From NCBI GenBank assembly GCA_002863145.1, contig PKDW01000127.1, positions 1 through 50,369 of the forward strand: a stretch of DNA of 50,369 nucleotides. The letters are read 5' to 3'. The notes under the pieces were generated by a model, which saw only the letters and a program-made list of their open reading frames with translations, was not told the origin of the DNA and did not search any database. Each line of letters starts with the position of its first letter. Position 1 is the first letter of the stretch. Made by a program: the position numbers and the translations under genes. Positions 34,501 through 50,115 of the stretch are shown one piece after another. The DNA comes from Flavobacteriales bacterium (GTDB lineage: Bacteria > Bacteroidota > Bacteroidia > Flavobacteriales_D > Sanyastnellaceae).

Positions 34501-36071
34501 CCGTTGTCCAGTTCCAACTGGGTCACGGACGACTTGAGCATCTTCAAGATCAGGGCGCCCGGCGCCGCATACCCGTCTTGGGACAGCGTACCCACTTGGT
34601 ATGTCTCGCCGTTGAGCGTGTATTCGTACGACACCGCCAAGACTTCGGCGTTGTTCAAGGCTTGACGCAACGAAATGAATCCAAGGCGGCTGTTGTAGGT
34701 GAATTCCGAGGGGCTCAACTTCCGCGCATTTCCGACACGCTCGTAGTGAACCCCTTGCCGCAGGTCGCCTCCCAACGCGGTGGAAATGGCCTGGTTGGCA
34801 CCCGTGTAGCTCATCACACCCTCGTCGAGGGTCAAGCTTCGGAAGAGGTCGTTGTTGTAGTTGTTCGGCGCGCGGTCGGGTGTGGGCTCCGTGGCAGGCT
34901 CAAGCACCGCTCCGCCCAAAATGCTGGTGTTGTCGATCAAATTGCCCAAAGGCAGGTTGGTCGACACGTAATCCGGGTGCTCCCCGAGGTCGGTGAAGGC
35001 CACGATGTTCCGCACGTCTTGGGTGTTGGCCTGTGTGTTGACGACGTACACCTCGATCCGGTTGATCATCGCCCCCGAATTCGGGACCGGCAACGACCGC
35101 ATCGCCTCGTCGTATTTGTCCACGAAGTATTGCGACAGGAAATAGTGACGGTTGGCTTCGTAGTCGTCGGCGCGGATGTCGAATTCTTGGGTTTGAGCAC
35201 CCCCCTCCACCTCAATCTCGCTGCGCTCCCCCTTTTGCTGGCTGAAGACGGTGGTGTTGTACAAGCGCCCCCATTGTGTTTCCAACTTCAAACCAAACAA
35301 ACTCTGCGAGCCCGCAATCAAGCTGCTGTTGAGCGGCATGTTGATGTTGCCGGCCTCGATGTTTTTCAAGATGTCGTCCTCCTCGCCTTGGAAGCCGATG
35401 TTCATTTGGTTTTCAAAGTCGAACAGCGCCTGGGTGTTGAACTGGGTCCCAAGCTCAATCTTGTCTCCAATCTTTCCAACAAGGTTCAACTGAATCCGCT
35501 GGTCGAAATCCACCGACCCAGCACGCCTTTGACGTTCAGGAATGCGCGGGTTCTCCGTATTGTTCCACGTGTAACCTAGGGTGATTTCCGCGGTTCCCTG
35601 GGGCTTGATTTCGATCTCGTTGCTGCCGAAAATCATCTCGAACAGCTCGCTGTCGATCTCCAACTTCGGCGCAAAGGCGCGGTCAGCCTCGTCCTCCTCT
35701 TCCTGAAGCTCGTTCCAAAACTCCGTCAAGTTGCCTTCGATGTTGTAGTTCAGGTACTCGTCCAACGTGAACAAGCTCGACGGACGAAATTCCAAGGTGT
35801 CGCCGATGGTTTGCTGGACCTCGTACATCCCTGTGAGGGGGTTGTACACAACGCCGTAGTTGAAGTTGCTCGGCCACTGCAAGGACACCCCACCCGGAAA
35901 TTCAGTCGGATTGAACATGTCCCTGTTGTCGTGGGGGAAGGGCAAATTGAACGTGGTGTCGGACTGCGTTTGGGCGTGCAGCGAAGTGACAATGGCGCAG
36001 GCCATCCAGGCCAAGCCAAAGCTCCAAATTCTCCTCCATTGCAGCCCATCGGCCTGTGGTGAGGGGGTCAT
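28503..36071 (-). CDS. sprA: SprA (Sov), outer-membrane translocon of the type IX secretion system
   Basis: A 2522-residue protein, the expected size of SprA, the 36-strand beta-barrel through which T9SS cargo crosses the outer membrane. A signal peptide (FGLAWMACAIVTSLHAQ) ends near residue 34. Segments typical of the family include GTAEITLGYTWNNTENPRIP, RAGSVDFDQRIQLNLVGKIG, FNTQALFDFENQMNIGFQGE, YIDDFEGSQSTIDLRAVNRW, FLASTPRW, WRRYEQSLAGLQELE and LWVNELRLSGFNEEGGWAA. The C-terminal half is a run of long amphipathic strands ending ISSGIALRFNLTQ. It is needed for protein secretion and, in gliding species, for motility. It follows ruvA by 30 bases on the same strand, in the order maeB-ruvA-sprA. 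The window shows several candidate cargo genes: the PKD protein and the type A sorting-domain proteins. Confidence 0.97.
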   Translation of the reverse strand: MTPSPQADGLQWRRIWSFGLAWMACAIVTSLHAQTQSDTTFNLPFPHDNRDMFNPTEFPGGVSLQWPSNFNYGVVYNPLTGMYEVQQTIGDTLEFRPSSLFTLDEYLNYNIEGNLTEFWNELQEEEDEADRAFAPKLEIDSELFEMIFGSNEIEIKPQGTAEITLGYTWNNTENPRIPERQRRAGSVDFDQRIQLNLVGKIGDKIELGTQFNTQALFDFENQMNIGFQGEEDDILKNIEAGNINMPLNSSLIAGSQSLFGLKLETQWGRLYNTTVFSQQKGERSEIEVEGGAQTQEFDIRADDYEANRHYFLSQYFVDKYDEAMRSLPVPNSGAMINRIEVYVVNTQANTQDVRNIVAFTDLGEHPDYVSTNLPLGNLIDNTSILGGAVLEPATEPTPDRAPNNYNNDLFRSLTLDEGVMSYTGANQAISTALGGDLRQGVHYERVGNARKLSPSEFTYNSRLGFISLRQALNNAEVLAVSYEYTLNGETYQVGTLSQDGYAAPGALILKMLKSSVTQLELDNGDQAPLWRTMMKNVYSMGAFGVSNEDFRLDIWYNDPNSGVDLNYIPREPLDGQLLIQVLGMDRIDINGMPYQDGVFDYVDNAAVNGGTINSQNGRIFLPSVEPFGSNLANKIGEYVDNSDIPAADQAAIRDALVQTLVFQPLYDSTKTAAQQIPSLNRFRIKGRFQSQSSSEIQLNALNVPEGSVTVTAGGVRLVENRDYTVDYNLGRVRIINDGLLESGQTIKVSLESNSLFNIQTKTLLGTRFDYVASDNFNIGTTFLNMRERPLTRKVNMGDEPVNNTVVGADFSWQTESRLLTELMDRLPFYSTTAKSTFDISAEGAYLIPGHSRAVGDEGTAYIDDFEGSQSTIDLRAVNRWFLASTPRWQNDKFPEAYLEDNLASNYNRAGLSWYTIDPSLMNGSALQDGQVDAEIRQDHRMRQILLRELYEKGDYSNSATAGMPTNLPTLDMTYRPTERGPYNYEPYEGSDHSPGLEPDGTLKNPDQRWAGIQRALTTTDFEAANIEYIQFWVMDPFNDDSENESGGKLYINLGNVSEDILNDSQLEFENGLPSANNTELETDTSAWGVYPDPTTFNVVNAFDNSTNDYSLQDVGLDGLNSENERTFFASWLDGLEADLNPDALAQYQNDPSADDFRYFRDPVAQQNGEDILERYQFFSRYEGNSNTQQPYGYPITSTTIPNTEDINEDLTLGTIESYYQYEIPLTLSDLAPENVGKGYLADVLETVSKTNGAGEQRPIKWYQFKIPVREYQQAYNGISDFRSIRFMRMFMQGWSEPVTLRFGRIELVRGEWRRYEQSLAGLQELEVDDPTGTQFALSAVNLEENGVRQPVPYVIPPGINQEIDPSNLNQRRLNEQSLALDVCGLDDGDARAAYRNINFDMRMYERLKMFVHVEAGRQDEILNEGDVNVFVRLGSDYDQNYYEYEIPLKPTPIDVAALDEYDIWPLENNIDISLDSLRLLSLQKLQNRYVDGEVSTTGVYSVVDAGGKRRLSVKGNPTLSNVVTVMVGIRNPDKDLEQPLWPSDDGQPKCAELWVNELRLSGFNEEGGWAAVAQANATLADLANVSVAANMSVPGWGGLEQRVQERQRETIQGLDANGTIQLGKLLPEKLGITLPMYVGYSNQTSTPQFDPLSPDVEMTDLAAIADQITDQDDLDAIDSRQQSARSINEVRSINFSNVKIAPQFGKGGGSKDRNSRKSNDANGDKLTEERERFGANNPRGGSSRGGGSGNSSKGLLSILNPANFSANYSYNEQYRQDIYTDNFRNVEHRGGLNYAWSPKPKKREPFSKIGFLRNSDYLKLIRDVNFYLLPKQVSVSNQMQRMYEVSTVRDNMSVLNPLTDFEPIITPQVVKTWTWNRNYTVKYDLTQALKLDYQGSAQALILENPGLIPSEVEDPDGYNAYREEIQNSLVEGGEVTTYNHQVNGTYKLPLDKFPLTDWLSADTRYQSSFRWDRAPFAQDTLGNTIQNSRNLSLNTQANFKNFYNKVPFLKEINDKRRPRPSDREVSNEKRDGFGNIIDEEEKEKKELNIVEHVLRFAMGLHTVSGTYARNEGTMLPGYAQQASFAGFDRNFTAPGLPFLLGHQNTDLYGNGFGAGTFAQEAASNGWLVQQANLNNQYTESYSENFNVRANLEPIRDFKIELTANRNISRNYQSFFRYDDDLQDYVNESANETGNFTATVLTWPTAFVDDDSTYTNPVWLNFLASRRFISERQNELNYNDELNEIGYAPGFGPISQNVVVPAFMAAYLGLEAQDVPLDVFQAPVRPNWRVSYDGLSKNPTLKKTFKRFNLNHTYRSTMSSAYTTNLGYEGDDQGRPTATDQGEYQDYISERQFSTVTISEQLSPLVGVDMSIKTANDNEPQIRVEITRDRNINLGLSNYQITETKTKGVVIGVGYKFDDVPNPFLKTYGKLPIKMLKKTDFLVRCDINIRENSTVIRKMVEQQNQVTAGQRLVSIKLSGDLEVSDKMTLRAFYDQQINKPKVSTSFATTNISSGIALRFNLTQ

Positions 36072-39113: not shown

Positions 39114-39899
39114 TCAGCGGATTACCAAGCGCTTGGTCGACACGGCCACGCCTTCCACCTTGTAGCTGACGAGCCAAATGCCGTCCGCCATGCCATCGAG
39201 GTCCAAGCGCTGGAGGGTGGCTCCTGCTTGCACCTTTTCCGCGCGGCCCACTTGCCCCACCAAGTTGCGGAATTCAATCACCCCGTCACGTGCGTTTTCG
39301 AAGCGAATTTGGACCGCATCCGAGGCGGGGTTGGGCATCATTTGGGCGATGCCTGTCTTGGCGTGGGCGGGAGATGTCACCGCGTCCACCGAACCCGTCA
39401 CCACGAAAGTCAATTCGTGGCAAGCGCCGAGGCTTGGGGGACCGTCTTGGTGGAAACAGTATTGCAGGGTCGTGGTGCCCGTGACGCCATTGGGGTAGAA
39501 GTCACTCACGAAGGTATCTGTGGTGTCTCCTGGCTCGAGAGTCACGAAAAAACCAGGAATCGCCGGAGAGGCGTCTGTTCCAAAATTGAAGCACGATTGC
39601 CCCCAGCAGAAGCGCTCGTATGAACCTTCAAACGGCATCCCATTTTCATCGGTTTCAAACGGGTAGTTGAAGGGAGATACGGTGTCCACCAGCGTGCGCG
39701 TCACCATGAGGTCAAGGGCTTCCTCTGTGCCGTTCAACACATCCCAATACACAGCCACCACTCCTGCAGCGCCGAGCGTGTCCAGGTCAATGTACACAGT
39801 GTCCGTGGTGCCCGACAAGGTCGGCGCCGAGAATTGTGCCTGTGCAGACAGCGACAAGAACAATCCCAAAATCCCGAAAAAGCGAGTGATGTGCTTCAT
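39114..39899 (-). CDS. Exported protein with T9SS type A sorting domain
   Basis: A 261-residue protein with a signal peptide (FFGILGLFLSLSAQAQ, ending near residue 22). The middle is a single beta-sandwich-like domain with TLSGTTDTVYIDLDTLG, VVAVYWDVLNGTEEALDLMV and a Cys pair (FCWGQSCFNFG). From about residue 185 the type A sorting domain follows: IAQMMPNPASDAVQIRFEN, VIEFRNLVGQVGRAE and DGIWLVSYKVEG, then TKRLVIR. Such proteins leave the cell through the T9SS and are attached to the surface or released. The function of the N-terminal domain is not recognised. It has a perfect leaderless-type -7 box and is divergent from the TlpA-like gene over 130 bases. Confidence 0.92.
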   Translation of the reverse strand: MKHITRFFGILGLFLSLSAQAQFSAPTLSGTTDTVYIDLDTLGAAGVVAVYWDVLNGTEEALDLMVTRTLVDTVSPFNYPFETDENGMPFEGSYERFCWGQSCFNFGTDASPAIPGFFVTLEPGDTTDTFVSDFYPNGVTGTTTLQYCFHQDGPPSLGACHELTFVVTGSVDAVTSPAHAKTGIAQMMPNPASDAVQIRFENARDGVIEFRNLVGQVGRAEKVQAGATLQRLDLDGMADGIWLVSYKVEGVAVSTKRLVIR

Positions 39900-40029: not shown

Positions 40030-40515
40030 ATGATCCGAATCGTCCTTTTTCAAGTCCTGTGTCTGTTGACCTCGGCTGCTTGGGCCCAGTCCTTGCCCAA
40101 CGTCAGCCTCAAAGACATTGAAGGCAATGCCATCCAAACCGCGGACCTCGTCCAAGAAGAAGGCCCCACGGTCCTTTGTTTTTGGGCCACGTGGTGCAGC
40201 CCGTGCAAGCGCGAGCTGAACAACTATGCAGAACTTTATGATGACTGGGTGGATGAAACGGGCGTCAAGGTGGTTGCGGTGAGCATCGACGACATGCGCT
40301 CCATCAATCGCGTGGCGCCTTACGTCAACAGCGTGGGATGGGAGTACGACATCCTCTTGGACCCCAACCGCGACTTTGCAAGGGCTTTGAACGTCAACAA
40401 CGTGCCGCACACCTTCGTGGTGGACACCGAGGGGAACGTCGTTTGGTCGCACAACAACTACGCCGACGGCGACGAATACGAACTCTACGAGGAGCTCCTC
40501 AAGCTCAGCGAATGA
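40030..40515 (+). CDS. TlpA-like periplasmic thioredoxin-fold protein
   Basis: A 161-residue protein with a signal peptide ending AAWAQ (cleavage after Ala19). The mature thioredoxin fold opens SLPNVSLKDIEGNAIQTADL and has the redox motif FWATWCSPCKRELNNY (Cys56 and Cys59), VVAVSIDDMRSINRVAPYVN, and the cis-Pro region NVPHTFVVDTEGNVVW. Proteins of this kind reduce disulfides in the periplasm, often for cytochrome c maturation or protein folding; the direction of electron flow here is unknown. The ATG at 40030 directly begins the signal peptide; earlier in-frame starts would overlap the divergent gene. It overlaps the DUF6029 gene by 4 bases (ATGA), implying a functional or at least transcriptional link. 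Confidence 0.94.
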   Translation: MIRIVLFQVLCLLTSAAWAQSLPNVSLKDIEGNAIQTADLVQEEGPTVLCFWATWCSPCKRELNNYAELYDDWVDETGVKVVAVSIDDMRSINRVAPYVNSVGWEYDILLDPNRDFARALNVNNVPHTFVVDTEGNVVWSHNNYADGDEYELYEELLKLSE

Positions 40516-42242
40516 ATCGCGCTCACGCCTCCCTCCTCTGGGCCCTGGGCTTGACAATGCTCTGTGGGATGCCCCACGCATGGTCGCAGTTTGGGCAGGA
40601 TGCGCCTGAGCCATTTGTGTCGGGCAATGTCGGCATCTTGTGGCAGAGCTACGCCGAGGATTCGCTTATTGGCGCCGTGGTGCCACCTGCGAAGACAGGC
40701 TACAATGCCTTCGCCAACGTCCTCTACAACCAAGGCAATTTCAGCGCAGGCGTGCGCTACGAAAGCTACTTGAACGCGGTCATCGGTTTTCCGGGGCGTT
40801 TCAACGGGAGTGGCGTGGGATACCGTTTTGCCCGCTACAACGATCCCGAGCGCGGGGTGGACGTCACCGTGGGCAACTTCTACGACCAATTTGGAAGCGG
40901 CTTGGTGTTTCGCTCCTACGAAGAACGCAACTTGGGCATCGACAACGCCATGGATGGGTTCCGACTCATCTTCAAGCCCATCGAGGGTGTGCAGGCCAAA
41001 TTCATCTATGGAAAGCAGCGATTTGACTTCGACAACGGCCTTGTCAATGGCCCAGGTGTCGTGCGCGCGGTCGACGTGGAAACCGACCTCAATGCGTTGG
41101 TGGAACGCTGGGAAGAGAAGCCTTTGAAAGTCGTTGCGGCGGCCAGTTTTGTGAGCAAATTTCAGGCGGGTTCGCCCTTCAGCGTGGACAGCCTCGTGCT
41201 GGCCATGCCACAAAACATTGGCTCTTGGTCCTACCGGATCAACGCCATCCGCAAGGGTTGGACGGCAAGTGCCGAATACGCCGGAAAAATCAACGACCCC
41301 AGTGCCGACAACGGCTACACGTTCCGCAACGGAGAAGCATTCCTGGCCACCTTGGGGTACAGCCAAAAAGGACTTGGCGTGTTGTTTACCGGCAAGATGG
41401 TCGACAACATGAGCTTCCGATCGGATCGGGATTTGCGCTTGTTTGACCTGCCCATCAACTTCATTCCCGCGGTCACACAACAGCACACCTACAACCTGGC
41501 GGCGACCCTCTACCCTTACGCCACGGTCATCACCGGCGAAACGAGTGCAAGTGCAGAAATTTTCTACACCATTCCCAAGGGCAGCAAACTGGGCGGCAAG
41601 TATGGCACCAAACTCAGCGCCAGCTTCGCCGCGGCCAACAGCCTGGACACCACGCAATACAGCAGCCAATCCCTGGAGGGCACGCTTTACGGATACCAGC
41701 GTAACAGCTGGGGACCTGGGGACGAGCTCTACGTGCGCGATTTCAACGCCTCCATCAGCCGCAAACTGAACAAGCGTTGGAAGGCCAAATACACCTTCTA
41801 TCACTTTAACTTCAACACGCTGACAACCCCAGTCACGACGGACTACAAGGGCATTGTCAACGCCAACATCCACGTGCTTGAAACCCAGTGGAAAGTGAAG
41901 CCCAAACAAAGTTTGCGGATAGAAATCCAAGGCCTGTGGGTCGGCGAAGACAAGGACAACCCGGACTTGCTGCAAGACAAAGGCCACTGGGCCACGTTGC
42001 TGATGGAATACACCTGGTCGCCACACTGGTTCGTCAGCGTGCTGGACCAGTACAACTTTGGCAACAACAATCCTGCCCAGCGCATCCACTACGTCTACGG
42101 TGCAGCTGGTTACATCAATGGACCCCACAGACTGAGTGTGGGCTACGGGAAACGCCGCGAGGGCATCTTCTGCATTGGCGGAGTTTGCCGTGCCGTTCCT
42201 GCGTCCAATGGCTTTGAAGTGACGTTCACAAGCAGCTTTTGA
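40512..42242 (+). CDS. DUF6029-like outer-membrane beta-barrel protein
   Basis: A 576-residue protein with a signal peptide (LGLTMLCGMPHAWSQ, ending near residue 26). The mature part is built of amphipathic beta strands: FVSGNVGILWQSYAEDSLIG, NVLYNQGNFSAGVRYESYLN, DVTVGNFYDQFGSGLVFRSY, VQAKFIYGKQRFDFDNG and HRLSVGYGKRREGIFCIGG, ending in an aromatic residue (EVTFTSSF), as outer-membrane barrels do. The stretch YEERNLGIDNAMDGFRLIFK matches the DUF6029 family as I remember it. No function is known. Translational coupling to the TlpA-like gene suggests the two are made together. I chose the ATG at 40512 because it begins the signal peptide. Confidence 0.88.
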   Translation: MNRAHASLLWALGLTMLCGMPHAWSQFGQDAPEPFVSGNVGILWQSYAEDSLIGAVVPPAKTGYNAFANVLYNQGNFSAGVRYESYLNAVIGFPGRFNGSGVGYRFARYNDPERGVDVTVGNFYDQFGSGLVFRSYEERNLGIDNAMDGFRLIFKPIEGVQAKFIYGKQRFDFDNGLVNGPGVVRAVDVETDLNALVERWEEKPLKVVAAASFVSKFQAGSPFSVDSLVLAMPQNIGSWSYRINAIRKGWTASAEYAGKINDPSADNGYTFRNGEAFLATLGYSQKGLGVLFTGKMVDNMSFRSDRDLRLFDLPINFIPAVTQQHTYNLAATLYPYATVITGETSASAEIFYTIPKGSKLGGKYGTKLSASFAAANSLDTTQYSSQSLEGTLYGYQRNSWGPGDELYVRDFNASISRKLNKRWKAKYTFYHFNFNTLTTPVTTDYKGIVNANIHVLETQWKVKPKQSLRIEIQGLWVGEDKDNPDLLQDKGHWATLLMEYTWSPHWFVSVLDQYNFGNNNPAQRIHYVYGAAGYINGPHRLSVGYGKRREGIFCIGGVCRAVPASNGFEVTFTSSF

Positions 42243-42263
42243 CAACACCTGTCCAATCCTCCT

Positions 42264-42271
42264 TATTTTCG
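42264..42271 (+). promoter_or_regulatory. Candidate -7 box for the first surface thioredoxin-fold gene
   Basis: TATTTTCG matches TAnnTTCG, about 53 bases before the ATG at 42325, in the 82-base gap after the DUF6029 gene. No clear -33 element. It suggests that the following gene has its own promoter with a leader of about 48 bases. Confidence 0.35.
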
Positions 42272-42324
42272 AACACCTGAAACGACCATATCGATTTCGA
42301 ATCAATGAATCCAAAACCATTTCT

Positions 42325-43800
42325 ATGAAGCAATTCTTCTCCCTCATGGCTGCGGCCATGATCTCCTTCGGAGCCTTTGCCCAATTGCCTGACGGCAGCA
42401 TCGCGCCCGACTTCACCGCCACCGACATCAACGGCGTTGAGCACAACCTTTACAGTTACTTGGACTCCGGTTACCAAGTGATCTTGGACTTCTCCGCCAC
42501 GTGGTGCGGCCCTTGCTGGAGCTACCACACCAGCGGTGTGTTCTCCGATTTGATCGCCGCCTACGGTCCTGCAGGCAGCAATGAAATCCGCATCATCAAG
42601 TTGGAGTCCGACGACTCGACCACTGCGGCGGACCTCAACGGAACAGGGGCGAACACCCAAGGCGACTGGGTGACGGGAACCACATACGACATCATCGACA
42701 ATGCATCTAACATCTTCGATGATTACCAGAACTCCTACTACCCCACCATTTACACGGTGTGTCCCAACCGCATTTTGACCCAGTCGGGTCAAGCAAGCGC
42801 GGCAAACCACGCGGCCATCTTCCAAGCGGACGACTGCCAGTACACCACCCTCGCCACAGACGGTGCTTTGTTGAACTACACCGGTTCTGACCTCATCTGT
42901 GGCGATGAGCAGGCTTCACTTTCAGTGCAGCTCATGAACAACGGCCTCGACAACCTCACCTCTTGCACCATCACGGCCCTCGACAACGGTACGGAAGTTG
43001 CCAGCACCGACTGGTCTGGAGACCTCGCGACGTATGAAGTGGAGAACGTGGTCGTGGGATCGGCATCTTTCGCTGCGGTACCCAACCTCACCTTCGAAAT
43101 CACCAACGCGGACGAAGATGCGACCAACAACAGCGCGGCTGGTGCGGTGGCGCTTTCTCCAGAAACCACGACTTACGTGCAGGTTCGCGTGACCACAGAC
43201 AACTGGCCTGAAGAAACGGGTTGGGAAATCGTGAACGACATGGGCACCGTGGTTGAGTCTGTGGCGGTCGGCTCTTTGGCGAACGCCGATGCCGAATACA
43301 CGTGGGACGTGGGCTTGCCCGGGATGGGCTGCTACAGCTTCACCATGTTTGATGCCTACGGCGACGGATTGTACGCTTCGCAGTGGGGCAACTTCGCTGA
43401 CGGCACCGCGGGCGTGTACGGCATGGACGGTGAAACGCAAATCGACGTCGTGTTCGAATACGACGGTGCTTCTGGCATCGAATTCGGCGAGCTCACCGTG
43501 GGCATGGACGCTGCCACTGTGGCAGGCATCGACGAAGCCAACTTGGCGGCGACGGTGAACGTGTTCCCCAACCCCACCAACGGCAACACCAACGTGGAGT
43601 TCAACACCACCACGTCCGCCATGGCCACTGTGGAAGTGTACAACTTGATTGGTGAGCGTGTCATGTTCAACACCCTCGGCAACTTGCCCGCTGGTTTGAA
43701 CCGCGCCAACCTTGACTTGTCTGGCGTCCAAGCCGGCATCTACCTCGTGAACTTGAACGCCGGTGGTGAAACCACCACCATGCGCATCACCAAGCAGTAA
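42325..43800 (+). CDS. T9SS-exported thioredoxin-fold protein, copy 1 (type A sorting domain)
   Basis: A 491-residue protein with a signal peptide ending FGAFAQ (cleavage near Ala19). Residues 20-170 form a redoxin-like domain: LPDGSIAPDFTATDINGVEH, VILDFSATWCGPCWSYHTSG (Cys61 and Cys64) and, at the expected cis-Pro, YYPTIYTVCPNRILTQSGQ. Residues 170-400 look like beta-sandwich modules (LSVQLMNNGLDNLTSCTITA, GMGCYSFTMFDAYGDGLYAS). The last 80 residues are a type A T9SS sorting domain: VNVFPNPTNGNTNVEF, VEVYNLIGERV and AGIYLVNLNAGG, ending TTTMRITKQ. It should be displayed outside the outer membrane, where a CGPC pair could form, break or sense disulfides. A close paralogue follows 128 bases downstream. 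A strong terminator at 43824-43858 separates the two. Confidence 0.93.
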   Translation: MKQFFSLMAAAMISFGAFAQLPDGSIAPDFTATDINGVEHNLYSYLDSGYQVILDFSATWCGPCWSYHTSGVFSDLIAAYGPAGSNEIRIIKLESDDSTTAADLNGTGANTQGDWVTGTTYDIIDNASNIFDDYQNSYYPTIYTVCPNRILTQSGQASAANHAAIFQADDCQYTTLATDGALLNYTGSDLICGDEQASLSVQLMNNGLDNLTSCTITALDNGTEVASTDWSGDLATYEVENVVVGSASFAAVPNLTFEITNADEDATNNSAAGAVALSPETTTYVQVRVTTDNWPEETGWEIVNDMGTVVESVAVGSLANADAEYTWDVGLPGMGCYSFTMFDAYGDGLYASQWGNFADGTAGVYGMDGETQIDVVFEYDGASGIEFGELTVGMDAATVAGIDEANLAATVNVFPNPTNGNTNVEFNTTTSAMATVEVYNLIGERVMFNTLGNLPAGLNRANLDLSGVQAGIYLVNLNAGGETTTMRITKQ

Positions 43801-43823
43801 ATCCTGCTTGATTTCACATTTCG

Positions 43824-43858
43824 AATCCGCGTGGCCTTCGGGCTGCGCGGATTTTTTT
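43824..43858 (+). terminator. Rho-independent terminator after the first surface thioredoxin-fold gene
   Basis: AATCCGCG (43824-43831) pairs with CGCGGATT (43846-43853) in an 8-bp stem, with further partial pairing inside the loop, and is followed by a run of seven T (43852-43858). It starts 24 bases after the stop codon at 43800 and is the clearest intrinsic terminator in the window. Confidence 0.88.
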
Positions 43859-43928
43859 GTGCCCATCCGGATGCTGCGGTATCTTGGACGGTGGAGCTCA
43901 GTTGCTTCGCTGAAACGCCAATTCCAAC

Positions 43929-45416
43929 ATGAAACACATCTTTGCCACTCTCCTTTTCGCTTTTCTGACACAAGTGGGCTGGACCCAACTGCCCGACGGG
44001 TCGATTTCGCCCGATTTCACCGCCACCGATTTGAGCGGTCAAGAGCACGACCTCTATTCGCTTCTTGATTCTGGATACCAAGTGATTTTGGACTTCAGTG
44101 CAACGTGGTGTGGACCTTGTTGGACTTACCACACGAGCGGCGTGCTTGACGAACTCTACGAGGCGCATGGACCTTCCGGAACCAACACGTTGCGCGTGTT
44201 CTTCATCGAAGGCGATGACAACACCACGCAAGCAGACCTCGAAGGAACCACGGGCGCCAGCCAAGGAGACTGGATCACTGGAACCTCCTACCCCATCATC
44301 GACAATGGCGGCAACATCTTCGCCGATTTCGAGTGCACCTACTACCCGACGATTTACACGGTCTGTCCCAACAAGATTCTGACGCAATCCGGACAAGCGG
44401 GCATCGTCGGTCATGAGGCGCTCTTGAATTCGGGCACCTGCACGCCCGCGTCGCTGCCCAATGACGCTTTGCTCATGGACTACGTGGGCCAGACTTCCAC
44501 CTGTGGAGACAACCCTGCAGCCTTGTCTGTACGCTTGATGAACAATGGACTGGACACCTTGACAACATGCACCATTCAAGTGTCCAAAGTGCTGCCCTTC
44601 AACCAATCCGAAGTCCTCGGAAGCACCGATTGGCAAGGGGAGCTCGGGACGTACGACTACACCACGGTGGACCTCTTGGACGTCACCATCGACAGCGAAA
44701 CGTTGTTTGTGTTTGAGGTGATTTCCGAGGACGACAACGAAGGCAACAACACCACCCAAGGCTCGGTCACGGCCAGCGAAGAGGTGGCCAACAACTTGGA
44801 GGTGCGGATGAAGACGGATGGCGCTCCGGAACAACTCGGTTGGTCCATCACCGACGGGACGGGATCCGTGGTCGCCTCAGTCCTGCCAGGTTCCGAAAAC
44901 CTGGAATCCACCACAGAGTATGTGTGGGACGTCACCTTGCCTGAATTGGGTTGCTACACCTTAACCCTCATGGACGAAGGGGGCGATGGTCTGTTCAACT
45001 TGGCCACGTCGATGGACGGGGTGGGATTCCTCGAGGTGAACAGCACCGATGGAGAGACCATCCTCGATCAAGATTGGTTCTACCAAGAGCTCGATGCATT
45101 CTCTGAAGTGACGTTTGATTTGGAAGTCACCCAAGTGACTTCAGTCGAGGAATTGGGCGTGCTGTCCAACGTGACCCTCTTCCCAAATCCTGCGTCGTCG
45201 TGGGTGACGCTGGCCTATGGGTCTACGAAGGCAGGTAAGGCCCAGTTGGTCGTTCGCAACGTGACCGGACAGGAGGTGATTCACCGAGACTTGGGGGTCA
45301 TGTCTGCAGGCAACCACCGACACCTTTTGGATGTTGGGTTCTTGGATGCCGGCACCTACCTCCTGGAGTTGCGCGTCGCCGACACCATTCACAGCATGAT
45401 TCTTTTGCATCCATGA
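43929..45416 (+). CDS. T9SS-exported thioredoxin-fold protein, copy 2 (type A sorting domain)
   Basis: A 495-residue paralogue of the preceding gene with the same order of parts: a signal peptide ending VGWTQ, a redoxin-like domain (LPDGSISPDFTATDLSGQEH, DFSATWCGPCWTYHTSG with Cys61 and Cys64, YYPTIYTVCPNKILTQSGQ), beta-sandwich modules (LSVRLMNNGLDTLTTCTIQ, LGCYTLTLMDEGGDGLFN) and a type A sorting domain (VTLFPNPASSWVTLAYGS, LVVRNVTGQEVIHRD, AGTYLLELRV). The thioredoxin domain is much closer to copy 1 than the rest, which has drifted. The sorting domain ends MILLHP, without the basic residue usual at the end of type A domains. It overlaps the Omp28 gene by 4 bases, so it heads a three-gene operon. 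A weak -7-like box TATCTTGG lies about 45 bases upstream. Confidence 0.92.
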   Translation: MKHIFATLLFAFLTQVGWTQLPDGSISPDFTATDLSGQEHDLYSLLDSGYQVILDFSATWCGPCWTYHTSGVLDELYEAHGPSGTNTLRVFFIEGDDNTTQADLEGTTGASQGDWITGTSYPIIDNGGNIFADFECTYYPTIYTVCPNKILTQSGQAGIVGHEALLNSGTCTPASLPNDALLMDYVGQTSTCGDNPAALSVRLMNNGLDTLTTCTIQVSKVLPFNQSEVLGSTDWQGELGTYDYTTVDLLDVTIDSETLFVFEVISEDDNEGNNTTQGSVTASEEVANNLEVRMKTDGAPEQLGWSITDGTGSVVASVLPGSENLESTTEYVWDVTLPELGCYTLTLMDEGGDGLFNLATSMDGVGFLEVNSTDGETILDQDWFYQELDAFSEVTFDLEVTQVTSVEELGVLSNVTLFPNPASSWVTLAYGSTKAGKAQLVVRNVTGQEVIHRDLGVMSAGNHRHLLDVGFLDAGTYLLELRVADTIHSMILLHP

Positions 45417-46291
45417 CTGCAACCTTTCGACACACCCTGTTGGGGGTGATCGCCCTCGGGGCGGCCTTTTTGCACTCGTGTGACAAGCTTGAAAATCCAG
45501 TCATCGAGGTCGTTCAGACCATCGACACCACGGACGTCGAAGTGCCGGAATTCAGCCCCCTCACGAGCGCTGTGCCTCGTGTGCTGGTTGAAGATTTTAC
45601 GGCGCACCAATGCGGCAACTGTCCCCCTGCGGGCTTGGAATTGGTCTCGCTGATGGATGCCCACCCCGACAGCATCGTGCCGCTGGCTATACATGCCGGA
45701 AATTTGGCCGTCACCAATGCCGATTTCCCCATCGATTGGACCTGTGAAGAAGGCGACGAATTCTGGGGCAATGTGACGTTGCAACTCAACCCCATCGGCC
45801 GCGTCAACCGCGTGAACACCGCATTCGGACAGGAGATCTTGCCCAACTTTTGGGCGGACGAAGTGGCGGACCAGTTGACGCGCACCCCAAATGCGGGCAT
45901 TCAAATGGTCATTGACGCCGATGAGAATGCAGGCGATTTGGTGGTGCATGCCCATGTGACTTGGCTGGCCGACGTGGCTGGTCAGCCCAAACTGTCTCTG
46001 CTCGTCGCAGAAAACCACGTGGTGGGCCCTCAGCTTTGGTATGCCAGTGCAAATCCCCCAGGGCCGGGGTTGGTGGAGGACTACGACCACAAGCACGTGC
46101 TTCGCGGAAGCGTGACGGGGGCGTACGGGTTGGCCATTGCAGAAAATCCCGTTGCAGGAGATACGCACCAGGTCGGATACACCTACACCTGGAACGACGC
46201 TTGGGACATGGGGAATTCTGAAATCATCGCGGTCTTGACAGACGACAATGGCACCGTGATCCAAACCATGGCGCTGCCCATCCTGCCATGA
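45413..46291 (+). CDS. Omp28-related lipoprotein with a CxxC motif
   Basis: A 292-residue protein with a lipoprotein signal (ALGAAFLHSC, Cys23), so anchored in the outer or inner membrane. The core is the Omp28 family domain, itself a thioredoxin-like fold: RVLVEDFTAHQCGNCPPAGL has Cys67 and Cys70, followed by IVPLAIHAGNLAVTNADFPI, LNPIGRVNRV and PKLSLLVAENHVVGPQLWY. Omp28 was first known as an outer-membrane adhesin-like antigen in Porphyromonas; its enzymatic role, if any, is unknown. Both flanking overlaps are 4 bases (ATGA), which ties it to the upstream surface thioredoxin-fold protein and the downstream small barrel. Confidence 0.93.
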   Translation: MTATFRHTLLGVIALGAAFLHSCDKLENPVIEVVQTIDTTDVEVPEFSPLTSAVPRVLVEDFTAHQCGNCPPAGLELVSLMDAHPDSIVPLAIHAGNLAVTNADFPIDWTCEEGDEFWGNVTLQLNPIGRVNRVNTAFGQEILPNFWADEVADQLTRTPNAGIQMVIDADENAGDLVVHAHVTWLADVAGQPKLSLLVAENHVVGPQLWYASANPPGPGLVEDYDHKHVLRGSVTGAYGLAIAENPVAGDTHQVGYTYTWNDAWDMGNSEIIAVLTDDNGTVIQTMALPILP

Positions 46292-46950
46292 TGCGCACGA
46301 CGCTGATGGCGGTGCTCCTGACGTTGTCAGGAGCCCAAGTGGGGCTTGCCCAAGAAGACGGAGCTTGGTTTTTCAATGGAGGATTCACCTTGGGCGTCAC
46401 CGCGGCACAAGTGCGGGGTGACGGAATCGAAGGCTTCAACAAGCTCGGTTTGCATGGCGGAGCTGTGGTGGAGGTGCGCCAATTCCAGAATTTGGGCTTT
46501 CAACTCGGGCTGCTTTACAACCAAAAGGGCAGCCGCAAAGTGCAGAATCCCAAGATTGACGATTACACCAACTGGGGCTACAAATTCACCTACGTCGACA
46601 TTCCCCTGACCGCGGTCTACGACTTCAAGGACGGCTACACGGTAGGCACGGGATTGCAGCCAGGTGTGTTGATTGGCGCCTTTGAAGACGGGTTGGCGAG
46701 TGGCGTGTCAGACGGAGAATGGGAACCGACAAGCTTGCCCATTCGCAGTTGGGAACTGAGCTGGGTGGTTTGGATTGGGATGCGCGCGGGCGAACAGGGA
46801 GAGTGGTTTTTGCGCCACACCCAAAGCCTGCCTGGCATCGTGCCCAAGCCACAGCTGACCAACCCCAACGTCCGCTGGGACGACCGCATGCAAAACCTCA
46901 CGGTGCAGGTGGGCTACACCAAGCTGATTCGCGCTTGGAGCGACCAATGA
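46288..46950 (+). CDS. Small outer-membrane beta-barrel protein (PorT/OmpW-like style)
   Basis: A 220-residue protein with a signal peptide (LMAVLLTLSGAQVGLAQ, ending near residue 22). The mature part alternates polar and hydrophobic residues as in an eight-strand barrel: WFFNGGFTLGVTAAQVRGDG, LGLHGGAVVEVRQFQNLGFQ, GLLYNQKGSRKVQ, KFTYVDIPLTAVYDFKDGY and TVGTGLQPGVLIGAF, ending LTVQVGYTKLIRAWSDQ. The stretch LLYNQKGSRK followed by YVDIPL is typical of the PorT-like barrel families of Bacteroidota. The function is unknown. It is the last gene of the operon with the surface thioredoxin-fold copy 2 and Omp28, and ends 9 bases from the convergent sortilin-like gene with no clear terminator. Confidence 0.88.
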   Translation: MMRTTLMAVLLTLSGAQVGLAQEDGAWFFNGGFTLGVTAAQVRGDGIEGFNKLGLHGGAVVEVRQFQNLGFQLGLLYNQKGSRKVQNPKIDDYTNWGYKFTYVDIPLTAVYDFKDGYTVGTGLQPGVLIGAFEDGLASGVSDGEWEPTSLPIRSWELSWVVWIGMRAGEQGEWFLRHTQSLPGIVPKPQLTNPNVRWDDRMQNLTVQVGYTKLIRAWSDQ

Positions 46951-46959
46951 CCACGAAGA

Positions 46960-49900
46960 TCAATCGTCTTGACGCTGCACCCCGTCGAGCACCCCGTCCA
47001 AGGTGACCTCGACTTCGCGCGCCGCCGCCATCAACGCCTTCCAAGGTCCGTCCATCAATGCCCGAACCTCTGCTTCGATTTCATCCAGGGCACCTCGTGC
47101 AATCTCCAACTTGCGCTGATCGTTGGCCGTGGCGCCTTCTCGGATGTCGGGCATCGCGTCGTAAAGCAGGCTCATGACCCGCACGGTGACATGGTCGTAA
47201 CCCACAAAATCCTCCGGCATCCAAATCATGTCATGGATGGCCGTGATGCCTTCTGCGACTTCTTGGTGCAATGAATCCACCTCTGTTGTGGTCGAATCTC
47301 CCAGATGCGCCCAAACATGCGACATCGCGTCCATCGCCTCGTCGGCCGCGGCCAACTCTTGCATGAGGTCTGAGAGGCGTTCAATTTCCGCGTAGGCGCG
47401 CTTCATTTGGACCACACCCTCCTCGTACTTCGCAGCGTCAAACGCGGTTCTAGGGTCGTGCACCCAAGTCATGGCCATGGAATCCACGTGGGTTCCCAGG
47501 GTGAGCACCGCAGTGTACGTGCCTGGCGCCACAGAAGGACCGCCACCCGTGGGTTTGTCCTCCTTGTCCAGTCCACGACTGGGCCAACGGATGCCGTCTG
47601 TATCGCCGCGCCATGTCATGGTCTGCCATCCCGCTTCGACCTCCTGCGTCATGCGGCGAAGGGTGTCGCCCTCGGCTGTCAAGATGACCACATCCATCTC
47701 GGAGTGCACCTCGGCCGTATCCGCTTGCACGTACACGTGCCCATGGGCATTTCTGTTCCGGTTTTCTCCCTGCCAAACGTGGTCTGCCATGAAACGTGAA
47801 CCCGCGGGGCGCGGACGCGGCACTTGGTAGCCGGACGACGCATCAAAGGCGCGGAAGGTGGCGTTGAGCAATGCCGCTCCTTCGTTGGCCAATGCGCGCA
47901 GCGGCGACAAGTCCTCAATCACGTAGGCCGCGCGACCAAAGGTCCCGAGCACCAAATCCCCCTCACGCGCCTGGATGGCCATGTCTCGAACGGGAACAGT
48001 GGGCACGTCGTGGGTCCAAGGGCGCCAGTTCGCGCCGCGGTCCACGCTGAAATACAAGCCCTCCTCCGTGCCGAGGAACAGCAAATCCGCGGCTTCGGGG
48101 TCCTGAACCACACACTGGGCATGGGCCGGGACATCCTCGCCGTAGACCAATCGCTTCCACGATTTCCCCCCGTCTGAAGTGCGGTAGAGGTAAGGCTCCC
48201 AGTCGTTGCGACGGTAATTGTTGGCCACCACATAGACCTCGTCTGGGCTGTGTGGACTCACGTGGATGAATGGAATCCATGAGCCCTCTGGCAAGCCCTT
48301 GAGTTGGTCTGCGTGGTCGGTCCATGTCTCACCGCGGTCCGCGCTGTGCTGCAACCTTCCGTCGTCCGTGCCCACCCAAAGTTCGTTGGGTCGCACTTTG
48401 GACGGGGCGATGCAAAGAATCGTGCAGTGGTTCTCCGCTTGTGTCGCATCGATGGTGAGCCCCCCGCTGGTGGCCTGTTCAAGCTTGGCGGGGTCGTTGG
48501 TGGTCAGATCGGGGCTCAAGGTTTCCCAAGTGCGTCCTCGATTTGGGCTGTAGTGCACGCGGTTGGAGCCAAAATACAGACCATCACGGTCGTTGGGATC
48601 CAACGCCAGCGCCGCGTTCCACGCGAATCGCAAGTCTGCCGTGTCCGGCGAAGCAGGCTGGATGCCCGTGGACCCGAGGGTCGTCAGGTTCACTCGGTTG
48701 AGGGCGCCGCCTTGATACATGGCGTATACTTCGCCGTCACCCGTAGGCTGAACGTCAAACCCGTCGCCAAACAGGACCTCCTGCCAGTCTTCGTTCCGTA
48801 TGCCACCGGCATGCCAAACCGCGGATGGTCCGACCCAAGAACCGTTGTCCTGCATTCCGCCGTACACGTTGTAGGGCTCTTCATTGTCAACGGCAATGTG
48901 GTAGAATTGACCAACTGGGAGGTTGTTCACGAAGGTCCAGTTGTCTCCGCCGTCGCGGCTGATGTTGAGCCCGCCGTCGTTGCCATTGATGAGGTAGTTG
49001 GGGTCGGAAGGGTGAATGTAAAGCGCGTGGTGGTCCGGGTGCACCCCGCTGTACGGCAGGATGATGTCAAACGAGCGGCCGCCGTCCGTCGACTTCGACA
49101 CCATGCTCCACAAGCTGTAGACATGGTCCTCGTTGGTGGGGTCGCAGTGAATCTCGGCATAGTAGAACGGACGGTTTCCCACATCGCTGTCGGTGGTTTG
49201 CCGACGGAAGGTCTCGCCGCCGTCGTCCGAGCGGTAGAGTGCGTAATCCTTGGACTCCACCAAGGCGTAGACCACATCTGGGTTCGCCGCGCTCATGGCC
49301 AAACCCATGCGCCCCAGCTCGCCCTCGGGCAAGCCGTCCTCGTCCGTTCGTTGGACCCAGTTCTCGCCCCCGTCGTGGGTGACGTAGAGGCCACTGCCTT
49401 CTCCGCCGGAAGTGAACGTCCAAGGCTGGCGACGGAACGACCACATGGCCGCAAACAACTTGTCGGGGTTGGAGGGGTCCATGATGAGTTCGGCACATCC
49501 CGTGCGGTCGTCGATGCTGAGGATGTGGTTCCAGGTTTGGCCCCCGTCGGTGGTCTTGTAGACCCCGCGGGCGGGGCTGTCACCCCAAGCCGAACCCGTG
49601 GCCGCGACGTACACCGTGTTGGGGTCGCGCGGGTGAATGAGAATGCGGTGAATGTTTCGGGTATTCGCGAGACCCATGAAGTCCCACGAGGCGCCGCCGT
49701 CGAGGCTGCGGAAAAGCCCGCGGCCGCTCGTGTGGCTGTTGCGGGGGTTGCCTTCGCCGGTGCCAACCCACACGAGGTCGGGGTTGAGCGGGCTGAGGGC
49801 GACCGCGCCGATGCTTTGGGTGGGTTGGTCGTCAAAGATGGACTCCCACGTGACGCCTGCGCTTGTGCTCTTCCAAAGCCCGCCCGAAGCGGTTCCGACA

Positions 49901-50115
49901 TAGATCACTTCCGGCGCCTCGTGCGGGACGGCAATGGCCGTCACCCGGCCGCTCATCGTGCCTGGCCCAATGTGGCGGACGTTCAAGGCTTCCACCAAAG
50001 CCTCCACGGGGTCTTGAGAAGGGTTGTCTTCCGATTGGGCGCCGACCGCGGTCAAGGCCAACCAACACACTGCGGCCAAGGCGGCCGCACGAAACTGCGA
50101 AAAGGAAAAAGTCAT
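46960..50115 (-). CDS. Exported sortilin/BNR-repeat beta-propeller protein
   Basis: A 1051-residue protein with a signal peptide (AAALAAVCWLALTAVGAQ, ending near residue 26). From about residue 45 to 730 it carries at least ten Asp-box (BNR) repeats of the S-x-D-G-G-x-T/S-W type: SLDGGASW, TTDGGQTW, THDGGENW, SDDGGETF, STDGGRSF, SRDGGDNW, SADRGETW, TSDGGKSW and SVDRGANW. These build one or two large beta-propellers like those of Vps10/sortilin and glycosidases. The opening ALNVRHIGPGTMSGRVTAIA is typical of the large Bacteroidota family of this type. A C-terminal region of about 300 residues (SGYQVPRPRPAGSRFMADHV, and a helical stretch with EIERLSDLMQELAAADEAM) has no T9SS sorting domain and no lipobox, so it may be periplasmic. 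Substrate or ligand is unknown. Its start overlaps the upstream gene by 4 bases. Confidence 0.92.
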   Translation of the reverse strand: MTFSFSQFRAAALAAVCWLALTAVGAQSEDNPSQDPVEALVEALNVRHIGPGTMSGRVTAIAVPHEAPEVIYVGTASGGLWKSTSAGVTWESIFDDQPTQSIGAVALSPLNPDLVWVGTGEGNPRNSHTSGRGLFRSLDGGASWDFMGLANTRNIHRILIHPRDPNTVYVAATGSAWGDSPARGVYKTTDGGQTWNHILSIDDRTGCAELIMDPSNPDKLFAAMWSFRRQPWTFTSGGEGSGLYVTHDGGENWVQRTDEDGLPEGELGRMGLAMSAANPDVVYALVESKDYALYRSDDGGETFRRQTTDSDVGNRPFYYAEIHCDPTNEDHVYSLWSMVSKSTDGGRSFDIILPYSGVHPDHHALYIHPSDPNYLINGNDGGLNISRDGGDNWTFVNNLPVGQFYHIAVDNEEPYNVYGGMQDNGSWVGPSAVWHAGGIRNEDWQEVLFGDGFDVQPTGDGEVYAMYQGGALNRVNLTTLGSTGIQPASPDTADLRFAWNAALALDPNDRDGLYFGSNRVHYSPNRGRTWETLSPDLTTNDPAKLEQATSGGLTIDATQAENHCTILCIAPSKVRPNELWVGTDDGRLQHSADRGETWTDHADQLKGLPEGSWIPFIHVSPHSPDEVYVVANNYRRNDWEPYLYRTSDGGKSWKRLVYGEDVPAHAQCVVQDPEAADLLFLGTEEGLYFSVDRGANWRPWTHDVPTVPVRDMAIQAREGDLVLGTFGRAAYVIEDLSPLRALANEGAALLNATFRAFDASSGYQVPRPRPAGSRFMADHVWQGENRNRNAHGHVYVQADTAEVHSEMDVVILTAEGDTLRRMTQEVEAGWQTMTWRGDTDGIRWPSRGLDKEDKPTGGGPSVAPGTYTAVLTLGTHVDSMAMTWVHDPRTAFDAAKYEEGVVQMKRAYAEIERLSDLMQELAAADEAMDAMSHVWAHLGDSTTTEVDSLHQEVAEGITAIHDMIWMPEDFVGYDHVTVRVMSLLYDAMPDIREGATANDQRKLEIARGALDEIEAEVRALMDGPWKALMAAAREVEVTLDGVLDGVQRQDD

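Follow-up and report, generated by a model that had tools for sequence, protein, structure and literature searches.

Conserved cysteines of a DUF6029 outer-membrane barrel and a candidate envelope thiol-redox gene cluster of Bacteroidota

The window analyzed here, the whole stretch of 50,369 nucleotides, is contig PKDW01000127.1 of a Flavobacteriales bacterium. At 40030-46950 it carries six open reading frames (ORFs) head to tail on the + strand, in the order TlpA-like protein, DUF6029 outer-membrane β-barrel, gene 3, gene 4, Omp28 lipoprotein and small barrel. We consider it probable, judging from sequences and structure models, that this cluster is dedicated to thiol-redox chemistry in the envelope of Bacteroidota, as a module built around the predicted surface cysteines of the DUF6029 barrel. 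This reading is supported by the invariance of these cysteines, conserved synteny, co-occurrence of the members, the fold shared by Omp28 and HBP35, the replacement of the lipoprotein in one distant locus (L234), and the presence of DsbD with no match to DsbA, DsbB or VKOR in the genome. A Cys pair is present in five of the six cluster proteins, the invariant pair of the barrel included. The parts are known families. That such a barrel is encoded throughout the phylum next to disulfide-making or -breaking types of protein for the periplasm, the outer membrane and the surface suggests a thiol system of the outer membrane that has not yet been described.

Results

Gene Order and Co-occurrence

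Relatives were gathered in three sets. In the order to which the window's genome belongs (hereafter the order), 60 genomes were searched, the surroundings were fetched and all ORFs in them were searched. A scan of named genomes gave at least 589 confirmed relatives, of which the best 80 are called the named loci, and the outside-order set comprises 73 loci; of the 77 genomes beyond the order that bear DUF6029 it represents 72, the other five not having been fetched. DUF6029 was carried by 58 of the 60 order genomes and, across the phylum, by 80 of the 296 near-complete genomes searched, one of these 80 (G284) being doubtful. A wider DUF6029 profile (A4) gained almost nothing, with 82 genomes against 80, so that DUF6029 remains patchily distributed at the sensitivity used. 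The best 80 of at least 589 named relatives include Ignavibacteria, Kapabacteria, Bacteroidales, Flavobacteriales and Hymenobacter records.

TlpA (40030-40515, + strand) stood immediately upstream of DUF6029 (40512-42242, + strand) not only in the window. The same arrangement on the same strand was found in 46 of the 54 order genomes with enough flank (TlpA within 4.5 kb in 50 of the 54), in 70 of 77 named loci and in 56 of 72 outside-order loci, the last count reaching 63 of 72 when TlpA nearby on either strand was included. Among the AhpC-TSA proteins of the window's own genome, the window TlpA was the best match for 65 of 65 neighboring TlpA proteins of the named loci and for 63 of 63 TlpA-profile matches outside the order; this comparison covered 12 of the 13 AhpC-TSA loci, with queries picked by a TlpA profile derived from order sequences. 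By these sequence comparisons, the TlpA proteins neighboring DUF6029 look like one orthologous group. Chance adjacency was ruled out by this orthology together with a conserved gene order far above chance expectation.

Omp28 (45413-46291, + strand) lay at most 4.5 kb from DUF6029 in 53 of 54 order genomes, the sole exception (G003) being at a contig end, and near DUF6029 in 73 of 80 named loci and 46 of 73 outside-order loci. It was present in 58 of the 80 DUF6029-bearing genomes vs. 4 of the 216 others (Fisher p ~4e-38, kinship ignored), and sprA, a translocon gene of the type 9 secretion system (T9SS), was found in 79 of the 80 vs. 148 of the 216 (kinship again ignored). The first-pass annotation had regarded TlpA-DUF6029 and redoxin-Omp28-barrel as two sub-operons and had proposed a check of their synteny in other genomes. 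Synteny was conserved, and the two groups, instead of being far apart and independently distributed, co-occur and adjoin across the phylum. The division into two had to be abandoned: separate units were ruled out by Omp28 following directly after DUF6029 in 40 of 55 order contexts and 73 of 80 named loci. In the window's genus, as in some sister genera, redoxins are placed between DUF6029 and Omp28, hence the appearance of two sub-operons, and a frequent arrangement in the order is T9SS redoxin - TlpA - DUF6029 - Omp28 - small barrel. On the synteny of the order, named and outside-order loci, the predicted proteins of both groups are parts of one old cluster, TlpA - DUF6029 - Omp28, often joined by the small barrel and T9SS redoxins.

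Within this cluster, as judged from predicted gene content, TlpA and the DUF6029 barrel are the constant pair and the surface part is the variable one. A T9SS-tailed redoxin- or Omp28-domain protein was encoded directly upstream of TlpA in 28 of the 66 named loci with room for it. Two loci have T9SS-tailed Omp28-domain proteins in the redoxin's place upstream of TlpA (L154, 189-2084; L169, 7403-9322). The least constant member was the small barrel, which shared the strand of DUF6029 at a distance of at most 4.5 kb in 47 of 54 order genomes, 24 of 80 named loci and 0 of 73 outside-order loci, 33 of these last having just ~1.5 kb of flank. L234, from a lineage outside the class, encodes TlpA, a barrel with CTSGIC, a redoxin with a lipoprotein-like N-terminus and a T9SS-tailed redoxin, and no Omp28 was found near its barrel. 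Here the lipoprotein is replaced and the layout kept, so far as the predicted proteins tell: the proteins differ and the compartments are alike.

Additional copies were seen in two cases. L124 contains the TlpA-DUF6029-Omp28 group twice, ~6 kb apart and with equal scores, which is either a tandem duplication or an assembly artefact, and L055 (G049 contig 3) is a second, broken cluster copy, the intact copy lying on the small contig L058.

Cysteines of the DUF6029 Barrel

The DUF6029 protein (PF19494, 513.8 bits vs. a cut-off of 27) is an outer-membrane β-barrel of ~24 strands according to its model, and carries the motif Cys-x-Gly-Gly-x-Cys-Arg (Cys-x4-Cys) before its last strand, with the codons of C554 at 42171-42173 and of C559 at 42186-42188 (+ strand). 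Both cysteines were found in 57 of 57 aligned order sequences covering that place and in 70 of 73 outside-order loci. The exceptions were L115, a gene split in the assembly with the motif in its second piece, L238, a doubtful match without cysteines, and L116. The last (1489-2607, G283) has a DUF6029 cut to ~370 residues without the Cys loop, with TlpA directly upstream and Omp28 nearby on the other strand.

Invariance was also seen in 124 rows found with the Pfam profile without using the motif (134 minus nine shorter than 480 residues and minus L238, the split gene L115 being a row of the set), in which the two positions held cysteine in 123 of 123 and 124 of 124 letters and were the two top-scoring columns of all. 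The pair was likewise invariant in alignment A4 and in alignment A2, which, with A3, takes in part of the 80 named loci (63 in A2 and 70 in A3 after length, start-codon and N filters), and it accounted for two of the ten invariant columns among 32 diverse, hand-chosen rows. For the named loci themselves, both the motif count (80/80) and the loop conservation are biased, because the two patterns of that scan fall within the Cys loop and loop 124-146. In very distant members (E down to 3e-5) the motif shrinks to C-x-x-G-x-C, most of them still being beside TlpA, and 32 of the 40 weak loci (L199-L238) have no further cysteine beyond residue 25. As far as the alignments indicate, Cys-x4-Cys is in every examined barrel with an intact C-terminus, one doubtful match apart. 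No conserved inner-face cysteine was found in the order alignment of the barrel.

The AlphaFold model of the barrel has a mean predicted local distance difference test score (pLDDT) of 89.5 and a predicted template modeling score (pTM) of 0.85. It shows a barrel fold with 24 strands, counted from the DSSP string with two short hairpins excluded, and a C-terminal Phe. Long and short connections mostly alternate, which would make the loop 549-564 (42156-42203, + strand), with the C-x-G-G-x-C-R hairpin, extracellular. C554 and C559 are accordingly modeled on a small hairpin of the last extracellular loop, their predicted position relative to the pore following from the topology. This loop was the most conserved of the 23 connections in the 124 rows, scoring 3.01, where the means were 1.69 over all extracellular loops, 1.35 over periplasmic turns and 1.82 over strands. 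Within these rows it ranked first in the outside-order loci as well, and second in the order alone (53 rows), behind a three-residue turn; loops 124-146 and 299-342 were the other conserved outer loops in the 124 rows. The top structural matches were the ushers FimD (Z 17.8 over 376 residues) and PapC (Z 17.1 over 373 residues), both at 9% identity, and OprD-type and AlgE barrels were also among the matches. A DUF6029-profile search of PDB sequences returned nothing but RecA chains, which matched over one short stretch and were taken as spurious.

Proteins Encoded With the Barrel

Six in-line envelope genes on one strand, four of them with thioredoxin-type CxxC motifs, had been described for this region, and ORF reading and Pfam recovered all of them, with CSPC, CGPC, CGPC and CGNC in their places. 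The signals of the CxxC proteins also agree with a predicted placement in the periplasm, at the outer membrane and on the surface. Single matches to DUF6029 and Omp28 were found in the window's genome, against 13 to AhpC-TSA, nine above the cut-off and the cluster TlpA among them.

TlpA is a TlpA/ResA-like periplasmic thioredoxin-fold protein with an AhpC-TSA/Redoxin domain (PF00578 AhpC-TSA, 87 bits), a WCxxC motif (CSPC at 40195-40206) and a signal peptide judged by eye. Its CxxC was kept in 51 of 51 aligned sequences. It scored 79.9 bits vs. the cut-off of 170 of the NCBIfam ResA subfamily and is hence not classed as ResA proper. The nearest solved chain was 2m72 (E 1.4e-40), which we take to be PG_2175 of Porphyromonas gingivalis.

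Genes 3 (42325-43800, + strand; CGPC at 42505-42516) and 4 (43929-45416, + strand; CGPC at 44109-44120) are tandem paralogues, 46% identical, and the genome gave no third near-full-length match. Both pass the cut-off of 23 for the T9SS type A sorting domain (TIGR04183, 50.5 and 27.6 bits, respectively) and exceed the curated cut-off for Por_Secre_tail of Pfam (50 and 31 bits). Their N-terminal label is weaker: the redoxin part stays under the Pfam cut-offs (AhpC-TSA 20.1 and 19.5 vs. 26; Thioredoxin 21.7 and 19.1 vs. 23.5), and therefore we call them "redoxin-like" only. Gene 4 weakly matched solved thioredoxin-fold chains (best E 2.1e-4).

Omp28 combines a thioredoxin-like and an immunoglobulin (Ig)-like domain. 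It exceeds the PF11551 cut-off (68.6 vs. 34.9 bits) and has a lipobox Cys (Cys23) and CGNCP at 45611-45625, with C23, C67, C70 and P71 invariant across 71 sequences. It stays below the cut-off of the NCBIfam subfamily NF033782 (119 vs. 150 bits), and weakly matches an Omp28-related selenoprotein model (E 4.7e-10), far under the cut-off. Its AlphaFold model (pLDDT 92.3) was best matched by HBP35 (5y1a; Z 24.2, 219 residues, root-mean-square deviation (rmsd) 2.5, 15% identical), followed by 2axo (Z 18.3) and the Omp28 domain 2r2c (Z 11.7 over 100 residues). An Omp28-profile search of PDB sequences returned two proteins, the same 2r2c and 5y1a. The small OMP_b-brl_2 barrel (46288-46950, + strand; PF13568, 49 bits, over the curated cut-off) has no conserved cysteine, by which its identity as PorG was ruled out.

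Transcription Units and Wider Neighborhood

The 4-base overlaps reported at first pass are real: ATGA joins TlpA to DUF6029 at 40512, gene 4 to Omp28 at 45413, and Omp28 to the small barrel at 46288. DUF6029 and gene 3 are separated by 82 bases, genes 3 and 4 by 128 bases. Between genes 3 and 4 the consensus scan placed a terminator-like hairpin of 14 pairs followed by a T run (43823-43854, + strand), the best-paired of its 13 sites (shuffle mean 12.1); this long hairpin excepted, promoter and terminator scans of the window gave counts like those of shuffled sequence. TlpA-DUF6029-(gene 3) and gene 4-Omp28-small barrel are likely the transcription units of the present window.

A small T9SS cargo protein (39114-39899, - strand; PF18962, 29 bits) is the divergent neighbor of the cluster and was seen in 29 of the 60 fetched order contexts. 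At the other end, a 1051-aa sortilin/BNR-repeat protein (46960-50115, - strand) converges with the cluster and occurred in 22 of 60. The T9SS translocon gene sprA is itself in the window (28503-36071, - strand); after it come ruvA, a malic enzyme gene and then, in divergent orientation, the thiol cluster. Other order genomes repeat this arrangement: SprA, RuvA and MaeB were found in 26, 31 and 27 of the 60 fetched order contexts, many of which are too short to reach them. Of the 80 named loci, 13 showed SprA and 12 showed RuvA, and the 40 weak loci gave no instance of either.

Discussion

We have proposed a plausible course for thiol chemistry around the DUF6029 barrel. The window's genome encodes one DsbD, with CVNC in the C-terminal part of its translation, and no match to DsbA, DsbB or VKOR was found in this genome, which is 94% complete. 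TlpA would be the reductant: reduced by DsbD, it would set the redox state of the barrel cysteines while the barrel is still periplasmic. Because the outer loop of the folded barrel would be beyond a periplasmic TlpA, this step would take place before barrel insertion, or else the hairpin would have to enter the pore. After insertion, the surface hairpin may exchange thiols or disulfides with Omp28 and the T9SS-delivered redoxins, and the barrel Cys pair could serve at the pore mouth either as a redox-set lock or as a mixed-disulfide docking site.

Several observations weigh against this proposal. DUF6029 had no TlpA nearby in 4 of 54 order genomes, in 7 of the 77 named loci and in 9 of the 72 outside-order loci, some of these nine having just ~1.5 kb of flank, and 27 of 73 outside-order loci had no Omp28 near DUF6029. 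T9SS-tailed redoxins of the window type were near DUF6029 in 35 of 58 order genomes and in only 3 of 73 outside-order and 11 of 80 named loci. The co-occurrence counts of Omp28 and SprA ignore kinship, and SprA was not matched in one DUF6029-bearing genome. Model confidence is lower at the Cys loop (mean pLDDT 72 for residues 551-560), and the completeness of 94% makes the absence of DsbA, DsbB and VKOR less than certain.

The cysteines could also form a plain structural disulfide, with TlpA and Omp28 just helping to form or correct it during barrel biogenesis, in the way that DsbA and DsbC assist the disulfides of LptD. Two cysteines across a tight hairpin turn fit such a disulfide in the model, and TlpA is the most constant neighbor in the outside-order loci. 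However, this account has no need for T9SS-delivered surface redoxins or for the lipoprotein replacement in L234, and TlpA-type proteins are usually reductants; we hold it to be unlikely.

A bolder proposal, raised as speculation at first pass, is a thiol relay across the outer membrane, in which electrons would pass from DsbD to TlpA, to the barrel through a hairpin or partner in the pore, and on to Omp28 and the surface redoxins. DUF6029 would then be to the outer membrane what DsbD/CcdA is to the inner one. Thiol proteins with signals for several compartments have been kept together phylum-wide, once through replacement of the lipoprotein (L234), the model is a 24-strand usher-like pore with conserved outer loops (124-146, 299-342 and 549-564), and the sole Dsb protein found in the genome is reductive. 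Yet the barrel has only one conserved Cys pair, outside by topology, with no conserved cysteine on the inner face, and in the folded model its outer cysteines would be beyond periplasmic TlpA unless a hairpin or partner enters the pore. We know of no relay of such kind across the outer membrane and rate it as still less likely. If true, Bacteroidota would control extracellular thiol chemistry from the cytoplasm.

Least likely is a substrate pore that exports or imports a polysaccharide or heme-type ligand, with redoxins serving the substrate, since it leaves the invariant cysteines unexplained, although the structural matches include usher, OprD-type and AlgE barrels, HBP35 binds hemin according to the accessible part of PMC2907840, and the sole paper found naming DUF6029, on outer-membrane polysaccharide export (OPX) porins, ascribes in its accessible part a potential polysaccharide secretion role from the similarity of some Wzi-like matches to DUF6029 (PMC9603273). 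The neighborhood search covered the cluster families, SprA, RuvA, MaeB and two further neighbors. The four readings (module, relay, structural disulfide and substrate pore) overlap.

In Gram-negative bacteria, disulfide handling has been described for the inner membrane and the periplasm. A phylum-wide thioredoxin set tied to an outer-membrane pore, as the redox module we favor implies, would extend it to the cell surface. The cluster names candidates (TlpA, Omp28 and the surface redoxins) for managing outer-membrane thiols in related bacteria, which gain relevance from the part that barrel-protein disulfides play in gliding and type 9 secretion, as described in the available text of PMC12635249.

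Comparison With Known Systems

Neither the cluster nor the barrel Cys motif was found described in the literature within reach, which leaves out most subscription papers, so that earlier work may exist. A study of the Bacteroidota β-barrel assembly machinery (BAM) never mentions DUF6029, Omp28, thioredoxin or disulfide (PMC12578637). The accessible part of PMC13404670 deals with HBP35-like surface thioredoxins of Muribaculaceae and not with the DUF6029 cluster, and "Omp28-related 00502", with a WD40 domain and Ig-like domains in the portion seen of PMC9477747, was not counted as the same system. In P. gingivalis, PG2175-PG2174-PG2173 is, by the names of its members, a possible counterpart of TlpA - DUF6029 - Omp28. 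In the accessible parts of the respective papers, PG2173 is named as an Omp28 lipoprotein (PMC9722745), PG_2174 as an uncharacterized vesicle protein (PMC4335976) and PG2175 only as a microarray probe name (PMC3946380). Going by gene order, one may guess that PG_2174 belongs to DUF6029.

DUF6029 shares a 24-strand architecture with the FimD/PapC ushers (3ohn, Z 17.8, 376 aligned, rmsd 4.5). The usher pores are 24-stranded as well. In contrast, identity to the usher rows is 9-11% and DUF6029 has no room by length for the usher side domains, so that the resemblance is one of fold only.

The window's genome has, like the DsbD/CcdA-TlpA/ResA relays, a TlpA/ResA-type protein together with DsbD. These relays act at the inner membrane, and to our knowledge they have no outer-membrane member. 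Compared with the two-sided cysteine access of DsbD/CcdA, DUF6029 has one conserved pair, which the modeled topology places on the outer side.

HBP35 of P. gingivalis resembles Omp28 in its thioredoxin-like and Ig-like domains and their shared fold. In the accessible text of PMC2907840, its thioredoxin activity depends on two active-site cysteines, a modified form is on the cell surface, and a conserved C-terminal domain serves surface attachment, whereas the window Omp28 is a lipoprotein encoded with DUF6029.

SprF and PorG are, like DUF6029, Bacteroidota outer-membrane barrels with conserved cysteines, and these form functional disulfides with GldK according to the available text of PMC12635249, the main text of which does not mention thioredoxin, oxidoreductase, Omp28 or Dsb. 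Their cysteines lie in a periplasmic C-tail that bonds GldK, whereas those of DUF6029 are modeled in an extracellular loop. A tether to GldK of this kind does not fit the DUF6029 barrel, which stops just after its last strand, with the cysteines preceding it on the outer side by topology. SprF/PorG-GldK is a precedent for functional barrel disulfides in Bacteroidota, and a different system.

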